DNA of 64,000 nt from Rhodococcus sp. H36-A4 (GTDB lineage Bacteria > Actinomycetota > Actinomycetes > Mycobacteriales > Mycobacteriaceae), in the NCBI RefSeq assembly GCF_027158005.1, contig NZ_JAPVLQ010000001.1:496001-560000 (forward strand), read 5' to 3'. Numbering within the stretch: the first letter of the stretch is position 1; each line of letters starts with the position of its first letter. Shown in pieces: positions 40,527 to 52,317 of the stretch. The translations under genes and the position numbers were made by a program. The notes under the pieces are model-generated. The model did no database searches. It was not told the origin of the DNA and saw only the letters and a list, made by a program, of their open reading frames with translations.

Positions 40527-41164
40527 CGGCGGGCGGTAATGTCGACGAAGTGACTGTGCGACCGGAGACGACCAGCCCTTACAAAAGCGCTGTGACCAGC
40601 CTGATGCGCACCACCATTCTCGACGCGCTCCACTCTCTGCTCCTCGAACACACCTGGTCGAACGTCAACATGACGGACGTCGCCAAGACGGCGGGGGTCA
40701 GTCGCCAAACCCTCTACAAGGAGTTCGGCACCAGAAAGGGTTTGGCGCAGGGCTACGCGTTGCGGCTCACCGACACCTTCGTCTCGGCCGTCGACAGCGC
40801 AATCTACGCCAACGAGAACGACAGCCTTCGCGCGTTGTATCTGGCCTTCACCCAGTTCTTCGGGCGGAGCGCCTCCGACCCACTCGTGTTGTCGATACTG
40901 ACCGACGACCCACCTCCGGATCTACTTCGTCTCGTCACCACCGAAAGTGGAATTCTGCTCGAACATGCGGCATCTCGACTTGCCGAGACCTTCGAGCACA
41001 GCTGGATTCGGGCCTCACCGCACAACGCCGACGTCCTCGGCCGCGCCGTCGTGCGGCTGGCATTGAGCTATATATCGATGCCCCCGTCGAATTCCGCCGA
41101 CGTCGCCGCCGACATGGCATCACTGCTCGCGCCCTTCGTCGACACCGTGAAGGATTCGGCCTGA
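40523..41164 (+). CDS. TetR family regulator of the alk operon (AlkU-like)
   Basis: A 213-aa TetR protein: '[30 protein letters not shown]' (in part) is the DNA-binding helix-turn-helix. The GTG start is embedded in the rubB stop (GTGA), so it is translationally coupled. It corresponds to alkU of Rhodococcus and Rv3249c of M. tuberculosis, also found at the end of the alkB–rubredoxin operon. It probably represses the operon through the palindrome upstream of alkB, giving autoregulation. Its last 45 nt overlap the convergent E1 gene. Confidence 0.92.
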
Positions 41165-43300
41165 CGCATCGATGATGTCGTCCTCGGACAGCAGAACCTC
41201 GAGCGCCGCGTCGCCCAGCGGGATGAAGCTGTCCGCGCTCGCCACCCTGCGGACGATGCCGTCGAAGCCTGCGTCGGCCAGCGCCGCGATCACTCCTTCA
41301 CCGACTCCGCCCGTTCTACGAGTCTCGTCGACCACCAGGACTCGACCGGTCGCACGAGCATGGTGTTCGATGTCGGCGATGGGCAGCGGAGCGATCCAGC
41401 GTATGTCCACCACGCGTACACCGATGTCGACTTTTTCGAGCGCGCGAGCAGAGCGCAGGCTCATCCGGACACCGTTACCGAATGTGACGATCGTCAGATC
41501 GTTTCCCTCGCCGTACACCCGCGCGCGGCCGACCTCCACGGTCTCGGTCGGATAGCTGTTCATCCACTCCCCGTCACCGTCCTCGTACAGGTCTTTGTTG
41601 TGGTACAACGCAATCGGCTCTAGGAAGATGCACACCGCACCGTGGCGAACCGCTACGTCCGCGCAGGTCGACAACATCGAGGCAGCGTCGTCAGGGCGCG
41701 ACGGCGAGGCAATGACGATCCCGGGGATATCCCTCAGCGCTGCAACAGCATTGTCGTTGTGAAAGTGTCCACCGAAGCCCTTCTGATAGCCGTACGCGGC
41801 GATACGGACCACCATCGGGTTTCGGTACTGCCGATTCGAAAAGAACTGTAGTGTCGCCGCTTCCCCCCGAATCTGATCGGCCGCGTTGTGCAGGTAGGCC
41901 AGATACTGAATCTCCGCAATCGGCAGCAATCCCGAAATACCCGCTCCCGCAGCGAGTCCTAGTATCGCCTGCTCGTCGAGAACGGTGTCGAACACACGCG
42001 TAGGCCCCACACTGTCCAGCAACCCACGCGTGACGCCGTAGACACCGCCCTTCCTGGCGACATCCTCCCCGAACAGGACTGCCTGTCGATAGCGTTCGAG
42101 AACCTCGAGCAACGCCCGGTTCACCGCCTGCGCTAACGTCAACGGAGCCCCTGGCCCCGCCACAATCGCTGCCGCAGACGATGTGGGGCCTGCCTGCGGC
42201 TTCGAGGCGACGTCGCGCATCATCTCCGAAAGCGGCTTCATCACCTCGGCCGCAGAACGGAGGTGCGGTAGTTCCGCGATCTCGCGTGCAGCCCCGATCA
42301 CCAGAGCACGCTTGGCTTCGTAGCGTTCCAGTACATCCTCGGCGGAGAGGGCTCCGTTCTCGATCAGCCACCGTGCCGTGCAGAGAACAGGATCTCGCGC
42401 ATGATCAGCGGAAATTTCCGAAGCTCCACGGTACGCAGATTCGACGTCGGATCCGGCGTGGCCCATCAATCGGACTGTGCGCAAATGCAGAAAAGCCGGC
42501 TTGCGGTGCGTACGCACCCAGGTCGATGCCGCCGTCGCCGTCTCGAGAACTTCGTGCAGGTCACTGCCGTCGGCGTAGAAGTATTCGAGCCCATGTCGTT
42601 CAGCGAAGTTGGACGCGATCCAACCCGCCGGTGTCCGCACGCTGATTCCGATGCCGTTGTCCTCACAGACGAACAGCAGCGGCAACGGCACGCCCTGATA
42701 AGCCGAGTGAACAGCGGTGTTGATGGCCCCCAGGGCCGTCGAATGGTTGGCCGACGCGTCGCCGAAACTGCAGATCACGACGGCATCCGCAGGCCACGGT
42801 GAGGGCACACCGAGCTTTTTCGCTCGTGGAATCGAGAATGCGACGCCGACTGCGCGGGGAAGATGCGAGGCAATGGTCGAAGTCTGTGGAATGACGGCAA
42901 GGTCGGCCCGGCCGAACACTTTGTGACGTCCACCGGACATCGGCTCGCTCACCGCCGCGACGAGGCCTTCGAGGACGTCGCGTATCGGATCACTGCCGCC
43001 TCCCTGGCGTGCACGTTCGAGATAGAAGGCTCCCGAACGGTAGTGCAACAACGCCGGGTCCGTCGGTCGTAGTGCACCGGCAACCGCTGCGTTGCTTTCG
43101 TGTCCGGCGCTACCGATCGTGTAGAAACCTCGGCCGATCGAGCGGAGCCAGCGCGCCGCGAGATCGAGATGCCTGCTGCCGAGCTGGGCATCGAACAGCT
43201 CGAGGATGCGGTCGGTCGAGGCTGACCGGCTCACCGAGCTGCTGCCTGAGCACAGGGAACCGACTCGATCCAGAAAGTATTCGTCGATCGGTTCGGCCAT
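41120..43300 (-). CDS. Fused alpha/beta E1 component of a 2-oxoacid dehydrogenase (thiamine-diphosphate dependent)
   Basis: A 726-aa single-chain E1. The alpha part (about residues 1–370) carries the ThDP motif 'FGDASANHSTALGAINTAVH' to 'FVCEDNG'. The beta part (about 390–726) carries 'AVLFGEDVARKGGVYGVTRG', 'EIQYLAYLHNAADQIRGEAA' and 'RVLVVDETRRTGGVGE'. It resembles fused branched-chain-type E1 proteins. No E2 or E3 gene is present. It lies 8 nt after the dioxygenase stop and is the last gene of the mycosporine operon, so it may serve that pathway or supply precursors. This link is inference from position only. Confidence 0.88.
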   Translation of the reverse strand: MAEPIDEYFLDRVGSLCSGSSSVSRSASTDRILELFDAQLGSRHLDLAARWLRSIGRGFYTIGSAGHESNAAVAGALRPTDPALLHYRSGAFYLERARQGGGSDPIRDVLEGLVAAVSEPMSGGRHKVFGRADLAVIPQTSTIASHLPRAVGVAFSIPRAKKLGVPSPWPADAVVICSFGDASANHSTALGAINTAVHSAYQGVPLPLLFVCEDNGIGISVRTPAGWIASNFAERHGLEYFYADGSDLHEVLETATAASTWVRTHRKPAFLHLRTVRLMGHAGSDVESAYRGASEISADHARDPVLCTARWLIENGALSAEDVLERYEAKRALVIGAAREIAELPHLRSAAEVMKPLSEMMRDVASKPQAGPTSSAAAIVAGPGAPLTLAQAVNRALLEVLERYRQAVLFGEDVARKGGVYGVTRGLLDSVGPTRVFDTVLDEQAILGLAAGAGISGLLPIAEIQYLAYLHNAADQIRGEAATLQFFSNRQYRNPMVVRIAAYGYQKGFGGHFHNDNAVAALRDIPGIVIASPSRPDDAASMLSTCADVAVRHGAVCIFLEPIALYHNKDLYEDGDGEWMNSYPTETVEVGRARVYGEGNDLTIVTFGNGVRMSLRSARALEKVDIGVRVVDIRWIAPLPIADIEHHARATGRVLVVDETRRTGGVGEGVIAALADAGFDGIVRRVASADSFIPLGDAALEVLLSEDDIIDASGRILHGVDEGREQ

Positions 43301-43308
43301 GGCTGATT

Positions 43309-44100
43309 CTAGCTATCGATGCGATGGTCCACGCTTGTCGCGAACTCGGCCACCATTCCGCGGTGCATGACGCGGTCGCCGACGACCCCGCTGTGGTCCG
43401 CGCGGTGCATGACGCAGCGGTTGTCCCAGATGACCACGTCACCGGGTGACCACGAGTGTTCGAACACGTTCTCCGGTCGTGTCGAGTGCTCCACCAGGTA
43501 CCGGATCAACGTTGCTGCCTCGGCGTCCGTTGTGCCACTCACCGCCACACAGCGGGCGGGCGCGGAAAGATACAGAGCCTTCCGTCCGGAAATCGGATGC
43601 ACTCGGACCAGCGGATGCCGAGCCGACACATCCTCGAATCCATCCAAGCCGGTCACCACGTGCGTGACAGTTCGCCCGTCGATGTCGGCGCGGATCTCGG
43701 CAGGCAAGGTGTCATAGGCGTCGTACTGGTTACTGAACAGCGTCTGGCCGCCCGTGGTCGGGACTTGGACGGCTCGTAGCGAGGTGTAGGCAGGCGGGTG
43801 TTCGATGTAGGTGGTGTCGACGTGAAACGTCGACTTCGGTGGGGTCGATCTTCCGACATTGCTGATCACGTTGAGATCGGGATAACCAGCGACAGGGCTC
43901 TCCCCTTCGGTGAACATCAGGTCGCCGAAGGAACGAAGAAACGCCAGGAACTGGTCGTCGTCGATTTCGCGATCGGGCATGACTGCGACGCCGTGCCGAG
44001 CGAGAAGGGTCACGAACTCATCGAGGTCCTCGGCACTCAAACGAGCGGGGTCGACCTCGGTGATGCGAACTCCGATGGGGCGCAGAATCTCGTGTTTCAT
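43309..44100 (-). CDS. TauD/TfdA family Fe(II)/2-oxoglutarate-dependent dioxygenase
   Basis: A 263-aa non-heme iron oxygenase. The facial triad is readable as H93 and D95 in 'STFHVDTTYIEHP' and H232 in 'DNRCVMHRADH', with the 2-oxoglutarate arginine R247 in 'VMHRGMV'. The ATG overlaps the mysD stop by 4 nt. Cyanobacterial clusters can carry MysH, a 2-oxoglutarate oxygenase of the PhyH type that converts disubstituted mycosporine-like amino acids to palythines. This gene is of the different TauD branch and could be an analogous tailoring enzyme. The substrate is inferred from context alone. Confidence 0.88.
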   Translation of the reverse strand: MKHEILRPIGVRITEVDPARLSAEDLDEFVTLLARHGVAVMPDREIDDDQFLAFLRSFGDLMFTEGESPVAGYPDLNVISNVGRSTPPKSTFHVDTTYIEHPPAYTSLRAVQVPTTGGQTLFSNQYDAYDTLPAEIRADIDGRTVTHVVTGLDGFEDVSARHPLVRVHPISGRKALYLSAPARCVAVSGTTDAEAATLIRYLVEHSTRPENVFEHSWSPGDVVIWDNRCVMHRADHSGVVGDRVMHRGMVAEFATSVDHRIDS

Positions 44101-45134
44101 CAGTCCCCCTCGCCTATTGCCAACGCGAACAGTTCGTCGAGAGGAATGCCTGCCGCAGCCGCCATGACGGTGATGACGCTGCTCGGGGAGTACGAGCAGT
44201 AGAGACCTGCTTCGAGGAACCACGGGTTTCCGTGTCGATCGATTCGGAAATCGAACAGGCTGTACTGACGGCACCCCAGCGCGACATGGCATTTTCTCGC
44301 GGCATCGAAGACTTTCTCGGTGATGGGATCGTCGCTCTCGACTATCCAGGCGCGGGTGGCCTCCTTGGCGACCAGGTACAGCTCACCGTCGTCGGTCCGG
44401 TCGAGTTTGTCGGTGCGGCCACGGATCGGATTCGATACCTCGTCGACGGCGTATTCCTCCAACGGTAGGCATACGAGGTCACCGTCGCGGACGATGATCC
44501 CGCAGCGCACCTCGCGGCCCAATTCGATATACGACTCGATGAGTGCCGATTGCGAGTATTGCAACGCTTCGTTCACGGCGGCGCCGAGTTCGGCCGGATC
44601 GCGAACCAATGTCACACCCATCGAATTATCGGAATCGACGGGCTTGACCACGACCGGCACCATCGCTGTGGACAATTCTGTTTTCGTCATCTCGCCGCGG
44701 GAGACGAGAACCCCGTCCGGAACGGCGACGCCGGCTGCCGCGACGACAGCCCGGGCAATGTTCTTTTCCGCCGTCATCGCCATCACTTCCGGCCGGTTCC
44801 CCACGTACGGAATGCCGAGCAGTTCGAACAGCGAGCGGTACGTTGTCATCCCGGGCCGGCAGAACATCTGAGGAACGACAACGTCGATTTGCCAGGTGGA
44901 TATCTCCGAGATTGCGCGGCTCAGTGAGTTAGGTTGCGCTGCCGCAATACTCGACGACTCGAGGTTTTTCGGAAAGCGCCAGCACCCGTCCGGTGTGACG
45001 AATGCGATCCGAAGACTGTAGGACGGGTTCTCGGCGAACGCATCGAGGAATCCCCCGGCGTAGACGCGCGAGAGATCGGCGTTGAAGTCGTCGACTGCCG
45101 AACCTGCCAGGACCAGTACCGATGTCGGTGACAT
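44100..45134 (-). CDS. mysD: MysD-like D-Ala–D-Ala ligase homologue (mycosporine-like amino acid biosynthesis)
   Basis: A 344-aa ATP-grasp enzyme related to D-alanine–D-alanine ligase. 'VVVPQMFCRPGMTTYRSLFE', 'PVVVKPVDSDNSMGVTLV', 'IESYIELGREVRCGIIVRDG' and the metal-binding end 'FLEAGLYCSYSPSSVI' are visible. In mys clusters this enzyme attaches a second amino acid (serine, threonine or others) to mycosporine-glycine as an imine, giving shinorine-type products. It overlaps mysC by 4 nt. The pathway assignment rests mainly on the intact mysA-B-C neighbourhood. The amino acid used cannot be read off. Confidence 0.87.
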   Translation of the reverse strand: MSPTSVLVLAGSAVDDFNADLSRVYAGGFLDAFAENPSYSLRIAFVTPDGCWRFPKNLESSSIAAAQPNSLSRAISEISTWQIDVVVPQMFCRPGMTTYRSLFELLGIPYVGNRPEVMAMTAEKNIARAVVAAAGVAVPDGVLVSRGEMTKTELSTAMVPVVVKPVDSDNSMGVTLVRDPAELGAAVNEALQYSQSALIESYIELGREVRCGIIVRDGDLVCLPLEEYAVDEVSNPIRGRTDKLDRTDDGELYLVAKEATRAWIVESDDPITEKVFDAARKCHVALGCRQYSLFDFRIDRHGNPWFLEAGLYCSYSPSSVITVMAAAAGIPLDELFALAIGEGD

Positions 45135-46450
45135 CAGTCCCCTCCATTCTCGACGAGTTTGCCGATGTTGAAATCTATTCGCGTCCAGCCTCGCCCGGAC
45201 TTCAGGTTCTTCAGCAACAGTGAAGGAATCTGCAGGTGATGAACCAACAGGTAGGGCAACGGGTCCCAACGTTCGTACACCGCGTCGGTTCCGCCGAGAA
45301 TCACTCGGAGTCGATGCCGGCGCCGCGGCTCGGTGAGCAACCGCCATAGTTCGTGGTAGATCCAGTACGTCGGACGCGAGGACTGGGTGGGTTCGACGAC
45401 CGAATGTCCGTCCTCCAGGTACGCAGCAGCGAGATCCGGGTGGTCGTAGAACATGGTGATGGCCGAGTGCGTGCGCGGATTGCATTCGATCGCGTAGACA
45501 TGCCCGTCCGAAGCCTCGATGAAATCGAAGGACAACTGGCCGGTGACACCGAGTGTCTTGACGAATGTCTCTACCCAAGATCGAATCTCGGGTTTGTCGA
45601 TCATCTCGTAGTTGACCTGAAATGCCGAGGACTCACAGCATGCATAGACCTGCAACGCGCCGTCGCGCGCGGTTCCGTGCGTGCAGTACTCCTGGCCGGA
45701 GATGAACTCCTGCAGTATCCACGGGTCGTCCTCGTTCATGGCGAGGCTGCGGGCGAACTCGGCATTCTGCTTCGGGGTGCTGCCGGACAAGCGCGTCAGA
45801 TCCATCCGCCCGACAGGGTTGTAGGCGATGCGTTTGAGGATGTACTCACGTCCGGGAGGAAAATCGAACGTTTCGATCTGCTGCGGGTCGGTGATCCGCT
45901 TCCAGTGCGGAACCCGGAGTCCCATCGACTCCGCCATCTCCGAGAATCGTGATTTGTCGTCGAGCATGCGCACGGTCTCGGAGTCTGCGTGCACGACCTC
46001 GCAGTATCCGTCGAGTACCTTCCGCGCATCGGCATCGTGAATACTCGCCGCTGGACTCGCCACCGGAACGAAGACGTCGACACCTTCTCGGATCACCACG
46101 TCGCGCAAGGCTTTCGCGTATCCATCGTCGGTGGGCTCCGGCACACAGTAGAAGCGATCGACTGCCCGAGAGAACCGATGTCCGGTGAACCGGTATTTGG
46201 GTGATTCGACGAGGACGACCCGGTGACCGGCGAGGTGGAACGACCGTGCCAGTTGAAGCGCTTTGGTCATCTTTCCGCCACTGATCAGAACCGTCCGGCT
46301 CGGCGAATCCACCGGATAGGCGCGCGAATCGAAGGGCGGATCGAATCGCCGGGCAAGGGAATAGCCCACCACGGCAAGGTCGAGTGGCAGCGTGGCGAGC
46401 AAACCTGACAGGGCCCCGACCGTGCGCACCGCCGACGACGCCGTGACCAC
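45134..46450 (-). CDS. mysC: MysC-like ATP-grasp ligase (mycosporine-glycine synthesis)
   Basis: A 438-aa ATP-grasp protein that in characterised pathways activates 4-deoxygadusol with ATP and joins glycine, yielding mycosporine-glycine. 'VLISGGKMTKALQLARSFHL' opens the N-terminal domain after a hydrophobic leader of about 40 residues, which is also seen in cyanobacterial MysC. 'REYILKRIAYNPVGRMDLTR' and 'GQLSFDFIEASDGHVYAIEC' followed by 'NPRTHSAI' supply the nucleotide and metal sites. The GTG start shares its G with the mysB TAG stop. The gene lies in the canonical A-B-C-D order. Confidence 0.92.
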   Translation of the reverse strand: MVTASSAVRTVGALSGLLATLPLDLAVVGYSLARRFDPPFDSRAYPVDSPSRTVLISGGKMTKALQLARSFHLAGHRVVLVESPKYRFTGHRFSRAVDRFYCVPEPTDDGYAKALRDVVIREGVDVFVPVASPAASIHDADARKVLDGYCEVVHADSETVRMLDDKSRFSEMAESMGLRVPHWKRITDPQQIETFDFPPGREYILKRIAYNPVGRMDLTRLSGSTPKQNAEFARSLAMNEDDPWILQEFISGQEYCTHGTARDGALQVYACCESSAFQVNYEMIDKPEIRSWVETFVKTLGVTGQLSFDFIEASDGHVYAIECNPRTHSAITMFYDHPDLAAAYLEDGHSVVEPTQSSRPTYWIYHELWRLLTEPRRRHRLRVILGGTDAVYERWDPLPYLLVHHLQIPSLLLKNLKSGRGWTRIDFNIGKLVENGGD

Positions 46451-47265
46451 TACGCCGATATCCGTCGAACGAGAGTCACACCGTCTCGCAACGGCAGAAG
46501 GACCTGCTCGACGCGGGGGTCGCCGGCAACATAGCGGTTGAAGTCCGCGATCGCGTCTCCGTTGCCGGTCCGACGGTCCGCAGGCGCGTACGGATGACCC
46601 TGCATCAACGTGTTGTCCACGACGATGACTGTGTCCGCGGTCAGCAGATCGGAGTCGAGCAGCATTCGGTAGTAGTCGAGATATCCGGTTTTGTCTGCGT
46701 CGACGAATACGAGGTCGAAGGGATGCGAGGTTCCGTTGAGCCGACGCAGAGTCTCCGAGGCCGGCCCGACCTCTACGACGATCCGAGCGCCCGCTGCCGA
46801 TTCTGCAAAACTTTTTCGCGCGAAGTCGGCCACGTACTCGTCGACCTCACACGCCACTACTTCCCCGTTCGGTGGGAGGGCTTCTGCCATGGCCAGCGCG
46901 GAGTAGCCGGTGAACATGCCGATCTCGAGCACTCTTCTCGCTCGGGTCATGTGCACCAGAAACTTCAGCAACTGGCCCTCGACCTGCCCGGACAACATTT
47001 CCTGCTCTACCGGTCGCGAAGCCCAGTCGGCAGTACGAGTCCGATGCGACAACGCTGCCAGCGCCGGGGACTCTTCCGTGGTGCAGAGCTCCAGGTACGG
47101 ATCGAGCCCCGCGGCCAGATCTCGCAGGCGGGTGATCCGGCTCATCAGCTCGTCCGGAATCGAAGCAACTTCTGCCAGCAGCTCGGTCACCTCTCGCAAT
47201 TCTGCGGCAAGGATGCTCGACGGTGTGACCGGGCGCGGTTCTGTTCGAGAGTCGATGTCACTCAC
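46450..47265 (-). CDS. mysB: MysB-like O-methyltransferase (4-deoxygadusol synthesis)
   Basis: A 271-aa class I SAM-dependent O-methyltransferase. '[20 protein letters not shown]' is SAM motif I, 'VACEVDEYV' the ribose-binding acidic strand, and '[20 protein letters not shown]' with 'VVDNTLMQG' the metal-binding region of catechol-OMT-like enzymes. In the pathway it methylates demethyl-4-deoxygadusol to 4-deoxygadusol. The GTG at 47265 overlaps the mysA stop (GTGA). A longer open frame upstream is only shadow of mysA. Confidence 0.93.
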
Positions 47266-48476
47266 CGACTCCGGTCGGAGGTGAACATGTCTATTCCGTC
47301 TCCGCGGCGGTCGAAGTCCAAGCAGATCTTCTTGTGCAGCGTCAACACGTCGGCGAGCTCTCCCGTAGTCACGTCGTTCAGGAATCGACATGCTCCGATC
47401 GGGTCGGGAACCGCCGCACGCAGAATTCCATCCCTAGTTTTCAGGATCGAACCGGTTGCCTCGGAGAGCAATTCCGGCGTCAGATAGTCACTGTCGAGCG
47501 CGAGCCCGAGACGGGACATGGTCCCGAGTACTCGATCGCGCTCTTCGGAGGTTATGTGCCCGCGCTGCTCGGCAAGGGTGGTCGACAACGCCATGTCGAT
47601 GTTGATCGCATGTCCGTGAAAGAACGGCGCCGGTGGCGTCAATTCCAGCGTCGGACTCCAGGTATGCCCGAAAGCGATGACCCGATCCAGTTCGATCTCG
47701 TGTAGGTTCGGCGCCTCCAGTTCGAGCATGGTGTCGATGGCCTGGTACGTCAGACTGTCTGCAACAGCGCGTAATTCGGCTGTCCCATCGAGGTGCCCAA
47801 ATCTGGTGCGGAGCAATTCCGGGCCGTGTTCGTCGAGCATGTCGAAAATTGCACTGTTACCCACTACGGAGATCTTGATCAACTCCGCCATGCCGTTCCG
47901 GACTTGATCTTCCGGTAGCGAACGAAGGAACGAAAAGTCCAGCAGGACCTTCTGCGAAGCGTGGTAGGCGCCCAGACGATTCTTGTGCTTTCCGAAATTC
48001 ACCGCGACCTTGATGGACACACTTGCATCGATCAGCCCGATCAGCGTCGTCGGGATTCTGATGTATGGGGTGTTGCGTCGGTAGCTTGCGCACGCGTACC
48101 CGGCGACGTCGGTAGTGAGCCCGCCACCGACGACCAGGACCGGTTCGGTCCGGACGAGCCCGAACCTGTCGAATTCGCCCACGATCTGCTCGAACGTCTC
48201 GAGCGACTTGGCGGTCTCGGCGATCTTCACCGGAAGTACGGTCAGCGCAATGTCGTGGTGCTCGAAATACGTACGGATCTGCTCACCGTAGATTGCGTAG
48301 ACGACCTCGTCGACGACCATGAGCGTCCGCCCGTACTGCCGGTAGCTTTCCGCCAGTTCCGTATTGCTCACCGAGAAGACACCGTCCACGTAGAGAAGGT
48401 CGTACTCGATCTTCTCGTATCCCTCGACGTGGAAGGCGCGCTCGGTGGCAGTGACCTGCGCTTGCATAGAGCTCAT
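47262..48476 (-). CDS. mysA: MysA-like demethyl-4-deoxygadusol synthase (sugar phosphate cyclase)
   Basis: A 404-aa enzyme of the dehydroquinate-synthase-like sugar phosphate cyclases. It uses NAD+ and a metal to cyclise sedoheptulose 7-phosphate. '[20 protein letters not shown]', '[20 protein letters not shown]', '[13 protein letters not shown]' and '[16 protein letters not shown]' with '[11 protein letters not shown]' match the EEVS/DDGS branch, not true AroB. The neighbouring methyltransferase and two ATP-grasp genes make DDGS (mycosporine) much more likely than EEVS. The ATG overlaps the preceding HAD gene stop by 4 nt. Confidence 0.92.
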
Positions 48477-49141
48477 CGGTTGCCTTCGGTCAGCGCGCGG
48501 AGCCGATCCGCGTCGAGATGATCGACGGTATCCACCGCCGCGGAGAAGTCGCCTCCTACTGTGTTCGCGTTGGGAAACGCGATACAGCGAACGTGTGCGG
48601 CAACAGCAGCAGCGACGCCACCGACGTTGTCCTCGATAGCAACGCAGTTCTTCGCGTTCTCGCCCAGGCGGCCAAGGGCGAACATGTACGCCGCGCGATC
48701 CGGCTTGCCTTGCGACACGCTCGCGGAATCGACCACGACGTCGAACAAGTCGACGTCGACAGCGGTCAGAGCGCCGAGCAACGCGTTGACGTTTTCTGGG
48801 GAAGTGGTGGTCACGAGACCGACCTTGATGTCGTGCTTCTTCGCATCGGCGATCGTCTCGACGACGCCGGGGCGCGGGTCGACGTCGGAGTTGGCAAGCA
48901 GCTTCTGAAAGATCTCCGACTTCGTGGAATGCACTGCTGCGGAGTCGACTTCTTCACCGCGTGAGTGTGCATATTCGGCGATGCGAGCCGCGCCGCCGTT
49001 GCTCGCCAGCATCTCGATGTAGTCCTGACGCTCCCAGGTCCAGCCGAGATCGTGGGCGGCGAAGGCGTCGTTGAATGCTTGTCGTTGAATTTCGGACGTG
49101 TCGGCAAGTGTGCTGATCGATCCGAACAGGATGGCAGCCAT
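48473..49141 (-). CDS. HAD-fold protein lacking the catalytic aspartates, first gene of the mys operon
   Basis: A 222-aa beta-phosphoglucomutase/CbbY-like HAD protein. Motifs II–IV are recognisable: '[12 protein letters not shown]', '[14 protein letters not shown]' and '[16 protein letters not shown]'. Motif I, normally F-D-x-D-G-T, reads F-G-S-I-S-T (residues 6–11), so both the phosphate-attacking and acid/base aspartates are missing. It is therefore unlikely to be an ordinary phosphatase. It could bind a sugar phosphate such as sedoheptulose 7-phosphate in a regulatory or carrier role. AAGGAA precedes the ATG, and the coupling to mysA (ATGA) ties it firmly to the pathway. Confidence 0.82.
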
Positions 49142-49563: not shown

Positions 49564-51150
49564 TTACCAAAGAGTCGAGGATGCGGTTCGCTCCTTGGAT
49601 CGCCATGCCAGCAGCACACCGTCGCCCTCGGGCCGCGACCAAGGCAAGAAGAAGCCGACGGCAAGTGCACACGCCAACGAGGCACCTACTGTGATGTACG
49701 AGGCGAGCTGAAAGCCTTCCAGCGAAGCAGCTTTCATGGCGTAGATCAGCTCCGCTTTCTGACTCGCGAAGATCGAGTTGGTCGGAGCCTTCGCAATCTC
49801 GATGACACTGATGACGGTCTCCCGAGCAAAACTCTTCTGATAAGGGTTCATGACTGCGTCGGGAAGTGCGTCGATCCGCGGCCCGACCTTGGTCGTGTAG
49901 ATGGATGCGACGATCGAACCCAGCACAGCAACCCCCAACGTGCCACCCACTTCCCTGGTGGTGTCGTTGACGGCCGATCCAGCACCAGCCTCGTCCAGCG
50001 ATACCGAGGACATGATCGATTCGGTGGCCGGCCCCTGAACTATCGCCAGCCCAAGTCCCATGAGGACCATCGAAATCAATACCGGACCGACATAGGGTGT
50101 TTCGACTTTCACTTGCCCGGCAACGAACATCCCGATACTCATCACGACCAAACCGAACACGATCACCGAGGTGGTTCCCACCCGCTGCGCGATGACGGTA
50201 GAGAGTGGCGCGCCGACGGCAATTGCGACGGCGAAGGGAAGCGAGTGGATACCGAACTGTAGTGGGCTGAGTTCCATCACTCCCTGGAAATACTGGGTGA
50301 TCATGAAGAGGAACCCGAACATACTGAAGTAAGCGATGGCTATGGACAACGCGGGCAACGAGAATCGCCGAATTCGGAACAACTGCATGTCGAGAACCGG
50401 CGAGGGGTGGCGTAGTTCCCAGAAGACGAACAGAACGAGGCTCGCAATCGCGACCCCATAGGCCGCCAAACTGATCGGAGACAGCCAACCCTGATGCGGG
50501 GCTTCGATTATCGCCCAGACCATCACGGTAATGGCCGCAAGAGAGAGCGCAATTCCCAGCGGATCATACTTCCCGACATGTGAGGCTTTGGATTCCGGCA
50601 CAAGCATCAGCGCCGCCACCAGAACGATCAGTGCCACCGGTACATTGATCCAGAAAACCGAGTGCCAGGAGAAGTGTTCGAGCAGAAATCCACCCGCAGT
50701 CGGCCCGATCGCAATAGCGAACCCCGCCATAGCTGTCCACGCCGCGATGGCAAGCGCACGTTCCTTGGCGTCGTCGAAGATATTGATGATCAATGCGAGT
50801 GTCGCTGGGAACACAGCCGCGGCGCATACTCCCATCGCCGCGCGCGCAGCGATCACCTGACCGAGGTCGGCCGCGAGAGCACCGCCGATCGACATCACAG
50901 CAATACCGGCCAGGCCGACCGCCATCACTGTGCGGCGTCCGTACCGATCACCCAGGTGCCCGAAGGCCAGCAGCAGACCCGCGAAGGTGAGAGTGTAGGC
51001 GTCGACCACCCATTGCAGGCCGCTGATGTTCGCATGCAACTGCACGCCCAGCGACGGCAACGCCACATTGACGACGGTGTTGTCGAGTACAACCAGCAGC
51101 TCTGCCGCGCAAATCACCGAGAGCGCCAACCAGCGTTTTCTGCTGGACAT
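49564..51150 (-). CDS. DHA2-type MFS transporter (14-TM drug:H+ antiporter family)
   Basis: A protein of about 528 aa with roughly 14 hydrophobic helices. 'VVLDNTVVNVALPSLGVQLH' is the helix-1 motif D1 of the DHA2 group, 'GHLGDRYGRRTVMAVGLAG' motif A, and 'GSAVNDTTREVGGTLGVAVL' motif C-like. I chose the ATG at 51150 ('MSSRKRWLALSV', typical N-terminus). An ATG at 51222 also works but lies inside a palindromic operator candidate. It is cotranscribable with the upstream TetR and transcribed towards the mys operon. It may export its own inducer, or possibly mycosporine-like amino acids. Confidence 0.88.
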   Translation of the reverse strand: MSSRKRWLALSVICAAELLVVLDNTVVNVALPSLGVQLHANISGLQWVVDAYTLTFAGLLLAFGHLGDRYGRRTVMAVGLAGIAVMSIGGALAADLGQVIAARAAMGVCAAAVFPATLALIINIFDDAKERALAIAAWTAMAGFAIAIGPTAGGFLLEHFSWHSVFWINVPVALIVLVAALMLVPESKASHVGKYDPLGIALSLAAITVMVWAIIEAPHQGWLSPISLAAYGVAIASLVLFVFWELRHPSPVLDMQLFRIRRFSLPALSIAIAYFSMFGFLFMITQYFQGVMELSPLQFGIHSLPFAVAIAVGAPLSTVIAQRVGTTSVIVFGLVVMSIGMFVAGQVKVETPYVGPVLISMVLMGLGLAIVQGPATESIMSSVSLDEAGAGSAVNDTTREVGGTLGVAVLGSIVASIYTTKVGPRIDALPDAVMNPYQKSFARETVISVIEIAKAPTNSIFASQKAELIYAMKAASLEGFQLASYITVGASLACALAVGFFLPWSRPEGDGVLLAWRSKERTASSTLW

Positions 51151-51207
51151 CTGCACTCGTTTCACAGCGATGCTGTTCGAAGAATGAATCACAACGACCC
51201 CTTCTGC

Positions 51208-51223
51208 TATGTCGTGCGACATA
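51208..51223. promoter_or_regulatory. Palindromic TetR operator candidate upstream of the MFS gene
   Basis: TATGTCG-TG-CGACATA has perfect 7-bp arms. The half-site CGACATAA recurs at 52015–52022 with an imperfect partner, upstream of the tetR gene itself. Two related sites flanking tetR fit autorepression plus control of the pump. Confidence 0.6.
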
Positions 51224-51300: not shown

Positions 51301-51912
51301 TTACGGGCGGCTGTGAGGCCCCCGTCGCGCGGCCACTGCCTGGTCGAGGACGGTCTCCACCCAGGGCACGAGTTCAGCCTCGACCCGATCGAGCGCGCGA
51401 ATGCTGCGTTGGCCCTTTGCAACTATCAGCGCCCCCTCGATGGCCGAGATCGCGGTGGTCGCGAGGGAAGACGATCGCTGCTGGGACAATCCCCGCTGCC
51501 AGAGCGAAGCCGCAATCGTGTCCTCCCAGGAGGTGAACGACTCCCCCGCGGCCGCAAGTGCAGCCGGTGAGTTCACACCTTCCAAAGCTGCTGGAGCCAC
51601 CGGACAGCCCGCCGTGTAATCGGTCGCGACAAGTTGCTCTCGAAATCCGCCGATGATTGCAGCGATGGTTCGCGCAGGGCCGTCTGCCGCGAGTCCCGAT
51701 GAGATTGCAGCCCCCATCATCGCGCCCGCTGCGCGCGTTGCTTCCTCGACGATCTGCGGCTTACCCTGCGGAAAGTGGTGATAGATCGAACCGCGGGGGG
51801 CGCCCGCATGCTCGATGACATCAGCGAGCGAGGTGGCCTCGACTCCTCGCTCACGGAACAACAGTGCCGCACTCCGCAGCATGTCGTCCCGAGCCGTGCT
51901 CTTATCTACCAT
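51301..51912 (-). CDS. TetR family regulator (LmrA/YxaF-like)
   Basis: A 203-aa repressor. 'VEATSLADVIEHAGAPRGSIYHHFPQGK' (in part) is the helix-turn-helix, with the G-S-I-Y-H-H-F-P-Q-G-K form typical of the LmrA/YxaF group. 'TAGCPVAPAALEG' lies in the ligand domain. I chose the ATG at 51912 because GGGAG stands 6 nt before it; ATGs at 51924 and further upstream are possible. It is immediately upstream of the MFS pump on the same strand and probably represses it. Confidence 0.88.
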   Translation of the reverse strand: MVDKSTARDDMLRSAALLFRERGVEATSLADVIEHAGAPRGSIYHHFPQGKPQIVEEATRAAGAMMGAAISSGLAADGPARTIAAIIGGFREQLVATDYTAGCPVAPAALEGVNSPAALAAAGESFTSWEDTIAASLWQRGLSQQRSSSLATTAISAIEGALIVAKGQRSIRALDRVEAELVPWVETVLDQAVAARRGPHSRP

Positions 51913-52317
51913 CGGTGCTCCCATCGCTATGCGGGCGATCATAGGCCCGTTTTCCACGTACCAGCTTGCTGTTACGGACAGTTACGCCTAGAATCTCGTC
52001 GCAGTTATGGTCTACGACATAATTGACCTGTCCTTCTCGCGGATGGTCGCTCGTCTGCGAAAAATGCTCGAGACTCTCGCACCGACGCAAGCACTCGCTG
52101 AGCGTGGCCGCGGACCACTCCCAAATCGGCCCGTTTCACGTTCGCCGAAGTATGGACTCGACGGAGATTCAGTCGCTCGGCACCGCCACATCTGACACAG
52201 GTTCTCGTCGCTGAGTATCGCAACACACCTTGCCGCGGAACTCTATTGTCGAGACCGACACGACATGGTCCACTGGCGTGCGGGGAACCGTGTAGGCGAA
52301 CAAGGGGAAGAGGTTCG
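51913..52317. other. 405-bp divergent intergenic region
   Basis: This gap between tetR and the flavoprotein gene holds the imperfect TTATGGTC-TA-CGACATAA site (52005–52022), a candidate autoregulatory operator. The remainder shows no gene, known RNA or repeat that I can support. The open frames across it are short shadows without family resemblance. Confidence 0.5.

Follow-up and report, generated by a model that had tools for sequence, protein, structure and literature searches.

The mycosporine-like amino acid (MAA) clusters of cyanobacteria and of Actinosynnema mirum have a core of mysA–D homologues. The locus described here has that core in common with them and additionally encodes a HAD-fold protein and a TauD-type dioxygenase. 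Both were reported in MAA clusters in the main text of the 2025 GATOR-GC preprint (PMC11888242), which places them in Actinomycetota, Pseudomonadota and Bacillota and not in Cyanobacteriota, and which cites an abstract by Osborn and Mahmud (2018) on MAA clusters with HAD and TauD; the six kinds of gene are identical to those found here. The same text cites unpublished work in which expression of the Rhodococcus fascians D188 operon yielded shinorine, palythine and palythine-serine. In Nostoc sp. UHCC 0926, the dioxygenase MysI, whose gene accompanies those of MysE and MysF, was proposed to hydroxylate a glycine arm to yield a palythine (PMC10510106).

The window (the whole 64,000-nt stretch of Rhodococcus sp. 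H36-A4 DNA that was analysed) lies on a 1.08-Mb contig of a 4.65-Mb genome. All seven genes of the original prediction were recovered on the minus strand at their predicted positions, running from 49141 to 41120 in the order HAD, mysA, mysB, mysC, mysD, TauD and fused E1. The first gene (48473..49141, 222 aa; PF00702/PF13419) encodes a CbbY-like HAD-fold protein, very probably a pseudophosphatase, whose closest solved relative is CbbY and which has FGSIST in place of the DxD motif. It is followed by mysA (47262..48476, 404 aa; PF01761/PF24621), a sugar-phosphate cyclase gene of the DHQ-synthase type, and by mysB (46450..47265, 271 aa; PF01596), an O-methyltransferase gene for which a GTG start was picked from the 4-nt overlap and from relatives. 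The mysC product (45134..46450, 438 aa) is an ATP-grasp ligase that by homology would add glycine; it scored above the cut-off for NF005315, a family labelled only 'hypothetical protein'. The mysD product (44100..45134; PF07478) is a Ddl-like ATP-grasp ligase, by homology for the second amino acid; a 492-aa ORF was judged to be an over-extension and a length of 344 aa was taken. The last two genes encode a TauD/TfdA-type Fe(II)/2-oxoglutarate dioxygenase (43309..44100, 263 aa; PF02668) and a fused E1 alpha/beta thiamine-diphosphate enzyme (41120..43300, 726 aa; PF00676/PF02779/PF02780, that is E1_dh, Transket_pyr and Transketolase_C). The mysA–D homologues had been described as coupled by 1–4 nt overlaps within one unbroken seven-gene unit; overlaps join the first six genes (4 nt at HAD/mysA and mysA/mysB, 1 nt each at mysB/mysC, mysC/mysD and mysD/TauD) and not E1, which starts 8 nt behind TauD. 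Upstream of the HAD gene, also on the minus strand, are a DHA2-type MFS transporter gene (49564..51222; PF07690, TIGR00711) and an adjoining TetR-family regulator gene (51301..51957; PF00440/PF21993). We consider it likely that an actinobacterial MAA operon of six genes entered an older TetR–MFS–E1 locus between its MFS and E1 genes, with a HAD protein that is a non-phosphatase aiding or regulating MysA and an E1 that is no pathway enzyme.

MysA matched best to 5tpr (541 bits), which we take to be a cyanobacterial desmethyl-4-deoxygadusol synthase (DDGS) despite the search tool's label of '3-dehydroquinate synthase'. Next came 4p53 (273 bits; labelled 'Cyclase'), presumably an EEVS-type cyclase, then DHQS (at most 125 bits) and DOIS (68 bits). 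Judged by these scores only, MysA would be a DDGS-type cyclase rather than an EEVS, DOIS or DHQS. MysD was far from the solved Ddl enzymes (best 64.5 bits) and had a single other match within its own genome (49 bits). With the O-methyltransferase, the MysC ATP-grasp ligase and the Ddl-like MysD present in order, the locus looks like an MAA cluster from its genes; the original assignment of the mysA–D homologues to this pathway was supported by the MysA scores and by the distinctness of MysD.

The conservation of the additional genes was assessed in a family sample of 251 genomes. Full-strength mysC (E < 1e-150; next match 9e-41) was present in 38, and HAD (E cut-off 1e-30; weakest match 9e-67) in the identical 38 when the two sets were compared by eye. 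A TblastN search of these loci, made up of the window and 37 fetched regions, located HAD, mysA, mysB, mysC, mysD and TauD in all of them, with one TauD broken. Gene order was identical in 36, and in the other two (L100, L101) TauD was located elsewhere. In a class-level sample of 316 genomes, mysC (E cut-off 1e-60) was found in seven, four of them already among the 38 and three new; the same seven had HAD at 318 bits or more, the next HAD scoring 135 bits. The correlation of HAD and mysC distances was 0.54, the lowest of five genes compared, and none of 500 permutations was as high; such correlations with mysC show co-inheritance only. The neighbourhood check thus upheld HAD and TauD as operon members. 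They had been described as non-canonical members; neither is peculiar to this cluster, and their presence in MAA clusters is not new, having already been reported in PMC11888242.

What is possibly new is the state of the HAD active site. Motif I read FGSIST in 38 of 38 sequences, compared with FDxDGT in active relatives, the two catalytic Asp residues being replaced by Gly and Ile. The residues S8, S10 and T11 of GSIST were invariant in all 38, and so were T111, K146 and E170/D171 of motifs II–IV. The Asp substitution was also present in three fetched mys loci, and the 120 best-listed of 1474 database homologues gave GSIST (118), GSISS (1) and GSISI (1). Thirteen generic HADs were fetched from 36 weaker places of the class-level search. 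Three were unreadable at motif I; of the other ten, nine had DxD and one DxN, so that the nucleophilic Asp was present in all ten. The AlphaFold2 model (pLDDT 94.2) gave as its top structural match the CbbY variant D10N with bound xylulose 1,5-bisphosphate. Compared with CbbY, a xylulose 1,5-bisphosphate phosphatase, the fold is shared (TM 0.85–0.88) and motifs II–IV are kept, whereas the Asp pair of motif I is Gly and Ile. Selection on the gene was strong, with omega values of 0.05–0.08 against four sister genomes, about the level of mysA and below the other five genes. Known HAD phosphatases require the Asp pair. With both catalytic Asp residues lost and the remaining motifs kept, the protein is very probably not a phosphatase, and the MAA-linked HAD can be described as a CbbY-like pseudophosphatase with both catalytic Asp residues replaced in every copy checked. 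Within the literature searched on mycosporines no report of this catalytic loss was found, and the main text of PMC11888242 contains none of the terms catalytic, aspartate, active site and pseudoenzyme.

A scan of genome contigs with the HAD alignment was used to widen the comparison, the best 80 of 126 loci being kept; several of these strains duplicate the 38. Since the scan began from HAD, it cannot reveal mys clusters without this gene, and since FGSIST was one of its two patterns, the scan itself accounts for part of the motif conservation seen in it. The FGSIST pattern did not match six of the 80 loci (L133, L159, L160, L170, L178 and L181), which were found via the other one; the Asp pair was missing there too. 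Among these best 80 of 126 loci, HAD was followed by mysA with no other of the seven genes between (gap of 780 nt or less) in 77, some loci without TauD among them, TauD lay within the fetched stretch in 73 and E1 in three, and the closest HADs among named strains were those of Rhodococcus sp. 1163, BP22 and 1168. The seven loci without TauD comprised four on short or cut contigs (L115, L130, L159, L170) and three full ones (L128, L174, L177). The latter, together with G275 of the class sample, gave four genomes with HAD and mysA–D and no close TauD, the best matches elsewhere in these genomes having 29–36% identity or being absent; among the four is a possibly incomplete MAG of 1.9 Mb.

Three contigs with the motif-less HAD were cyanobacterial, from Chamaesiphon polymorphus (L166) and two MAGs (L170, L178). 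Their G+C content was 43–46%, whereas the two actinobacterial loci used for comparison had 62 and 72%. The L178 contig encodes ChlP, and mysABCD is on another contig of that genome; the L166 contig stops after mysB, and mysC was not found in the L166 genome. TauD was immediately after HAD in L166 and L178. These copies differ from the account in the main text of PMC11888242, where none is reported for Cyanobacteriota, and add one more phylum to its three for HAD. A class-III aminotransferase gene (L178:7519-8838) was also seen ahead of the HAD–TauD pair of that MAG.

If the HAD protein is no phosphatase, it should act by binding or as a regulator. Its position, its retained motifs and its CbbY fold suggest that it most likely binds a ketose phosphate without turnover and assists or regulates MysA. 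CbbY D10N was crystallised with bound substrate, so the MAA HAD would, if this is true, be a sugar phosphatase that nature has turned into a substrate-binding form. In a more general form, which we put forward tentatively, MAA clusters could have a dedicated CbbY-like pseudophosphatase without the Asp pair, found both in Actinomycetota and in some of the cyanobacteria. It would hold a ketose phosphate, with sedoheptulose 7-phosphate as one candidate, and would control MysA or supply it. Counting against a role of this kind, mysA–D without HAD have been reported to be sufficient in cyanobacteria, and HAD is paired with TauD and not with mysA in two of the cyanobacterial loci. The arrangement in those two (L166 and L178), together with a HAD–TauD co-localisation noted in the main text of PMC11888242, could mean that HAD is the partner of TauD in the palythine step instead. 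This seems unlikely, given that among the best 80 of 126 loci HAD stands ahead of mysA in 77 while the position of TauD varies; an obligate pair is also weakened by the four genomes, one of them the 1.9-Mb MAG, that have HAD and mysA–D and no close TauD. Retained catalysis, with the invariant Ser or Thr of GSIST replacing the Asp nucleophile, could explain why S8, S10, T11, K146 and E170/D171 never vary, but is quite improbable when known HAD phosphatases need an Asp pair whose two positions are here occupied by Gly and Ile. The binding role beside MysA is retained as the most likely one, and the question of what the conserved HAD does, left open in the main text of PMC11888242, is now sharpened.

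The TauD sequences kept the HxD motif (HVD) and the distal His/Arg region in 37 of 38 rows of the alignment, read by eye, so that the HxD...H facial triad and the 2-oxoglutarate-binding Arg of TauD/TfdA dioxygenases are present. The domain search returned PF02668 only, with no MysH-type PhyH domain. MysI is of the same TauD/TfdA type, the likeness being one of family and proposed reaction. By homology, MysA would cyclise sedoheptulose 7-phosphate, MysB would methylate the product to 4-deoxygadusol, MysC would attach glycine and MysD a second amino acid, giving a shinorine-type compound. TauD would then hydroxylate a glycine arm, which would fall off to leave palythine-type products. Oxidative removal of the glycine arm by TauD to give palythines is probable from homology and from the unpublished expression result cited in PMC11888242. 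In one sister strain, TauD is broken (L047, 6121-6603), leaving a 160-aa frame without the HxD and distal His region while HAD, mysA–D and E1 are intact; a shinorine-type rather than a palythine-type product is predicted there. A product with additional oxidation or decarboxylation had been suggested for the cluster; the oxidation fits TauD, while decarboxylation by E1 was not supported, E1 adjoining mys in only five of the 38 genomes.

The original prediction treated E1 as the seventh pathway gene, and this was rejected because of its distribution and synteny. E1 adjoined the mys genes in five of 38 genomes, all of one clade, and was missing from the other 33 fetched mys loci. Full-length E1 (at least 790 bits) was present in 62 of the 251 family genomes. 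By hand count, 48 of the 62 had no full-strength mysC, and among the 38 genomes that do have it, 24 were without such an E1. Partial matches to the close E1, most in two pieces, were found in 15 further genomes, none with full-strength mysC. Four relatives (G151, G249, G036 and G056) have a TetR–MFS–E1 locus without mys, in which 49, 41, 14 and 1198 nt, respectively, separate the MFS stop from the E1 start; the 1198-nt gap contains a 420-aa frame that is transporter-like by eye. In the window, TetR and MFS are just upstream of HAD, with 70–80% and 81–86% identity to their counterparts upstream of E1 in the relatives, and E1 is just downstream of TauD. Two genes further downstream are common to the window and all four relatives, with others in some. 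In a 25-row E1 tree, the E1s of the five mys-bearing loci formed the sister group of those from the four relatives (100/100). The operon E1 is an ortholog of the resident locus. The mys genes were not found in 16 other E1 loci checked (L069–L084).

The E1 protein has the alpha and beta domains and keeps the TPP motif GDx...N of a 2-oxo acid dehydrogenase E1. With the motif kept and the sequence constrained (omega about 0.15, purifying selection), it is probably functional. That all seven genes form one pathway, with E1 decarboxylating or otherwise tailoring the MAA, would account for E1 lying on the same strand 8 nt behind TauD and for its persistence beside mys, under purifying selection, in all five clade members. 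This is nevertheless very improbable, since the same E1 occurs in the TetR–MFS locus, is missing from 33 of 38 mys loci and from 77 of the 80 named loci (best 80 of 126), shows the discordance with mysC noted above and is intact beside a broken TauD. The main text of PMC11888242 does not mention transketolase or pyruvate dehydrogenase. E1 is most likely an older neighbour outside the MAA pathway. Its transcription may by now start from the mys promoter, together with the operon, and its 8-nt distance from TauD and its purifying selection make co-option possible. A misleading gene is thereby removed from the predicted pathway, and the predicted end product should be no more than a palythine-type MAA.

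As TetR–MFS flanks the mys genes on one side and E1 on the other, compared with TetR–MFS–E1 in the relatives, the mys genes probably landed between MFS and E1; arrival as a six-gene unit is the simplest reading. The absence of mys genes from the 16 outgroup E1 loci indicates that mys was gained here and not lost by the relatives. Against an insertion, TetR–MFS is beside mys only in this genome, and the four sister genomes do not have it there. A 231-aa fragment with 97% identity to the window MFS was found far from the mys locus in the sister genome G201 (C1:3970998-3971690), which suggests that the TetR–MFS half was rearranged in this clade.

A plasmid origin was also considered and set aside. 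A mysC match was present in 14 PLSDB records, the best being Nostoc sp. HK-01 (56.5%), and TauD matches in 443 PLSDB records were all below 60%.

NCBI records give the name 'MFS transporter' to several orthologs of the fused E1, probably in error. These names and long open frames raised the idea of an MFS–E1 fusion, which was not supported, as no match to the window MFS was found in frame with E1. In L074 and L078, a gene of about 510 aa belonging to one blast cluster adjoins E1. The L074 gene directly upstream of E1 was identified above the cut-off as an L-piperidine-6-carboxylate dehydrogenase, which hints at a possible role of this E1 family in lysine catabolism.
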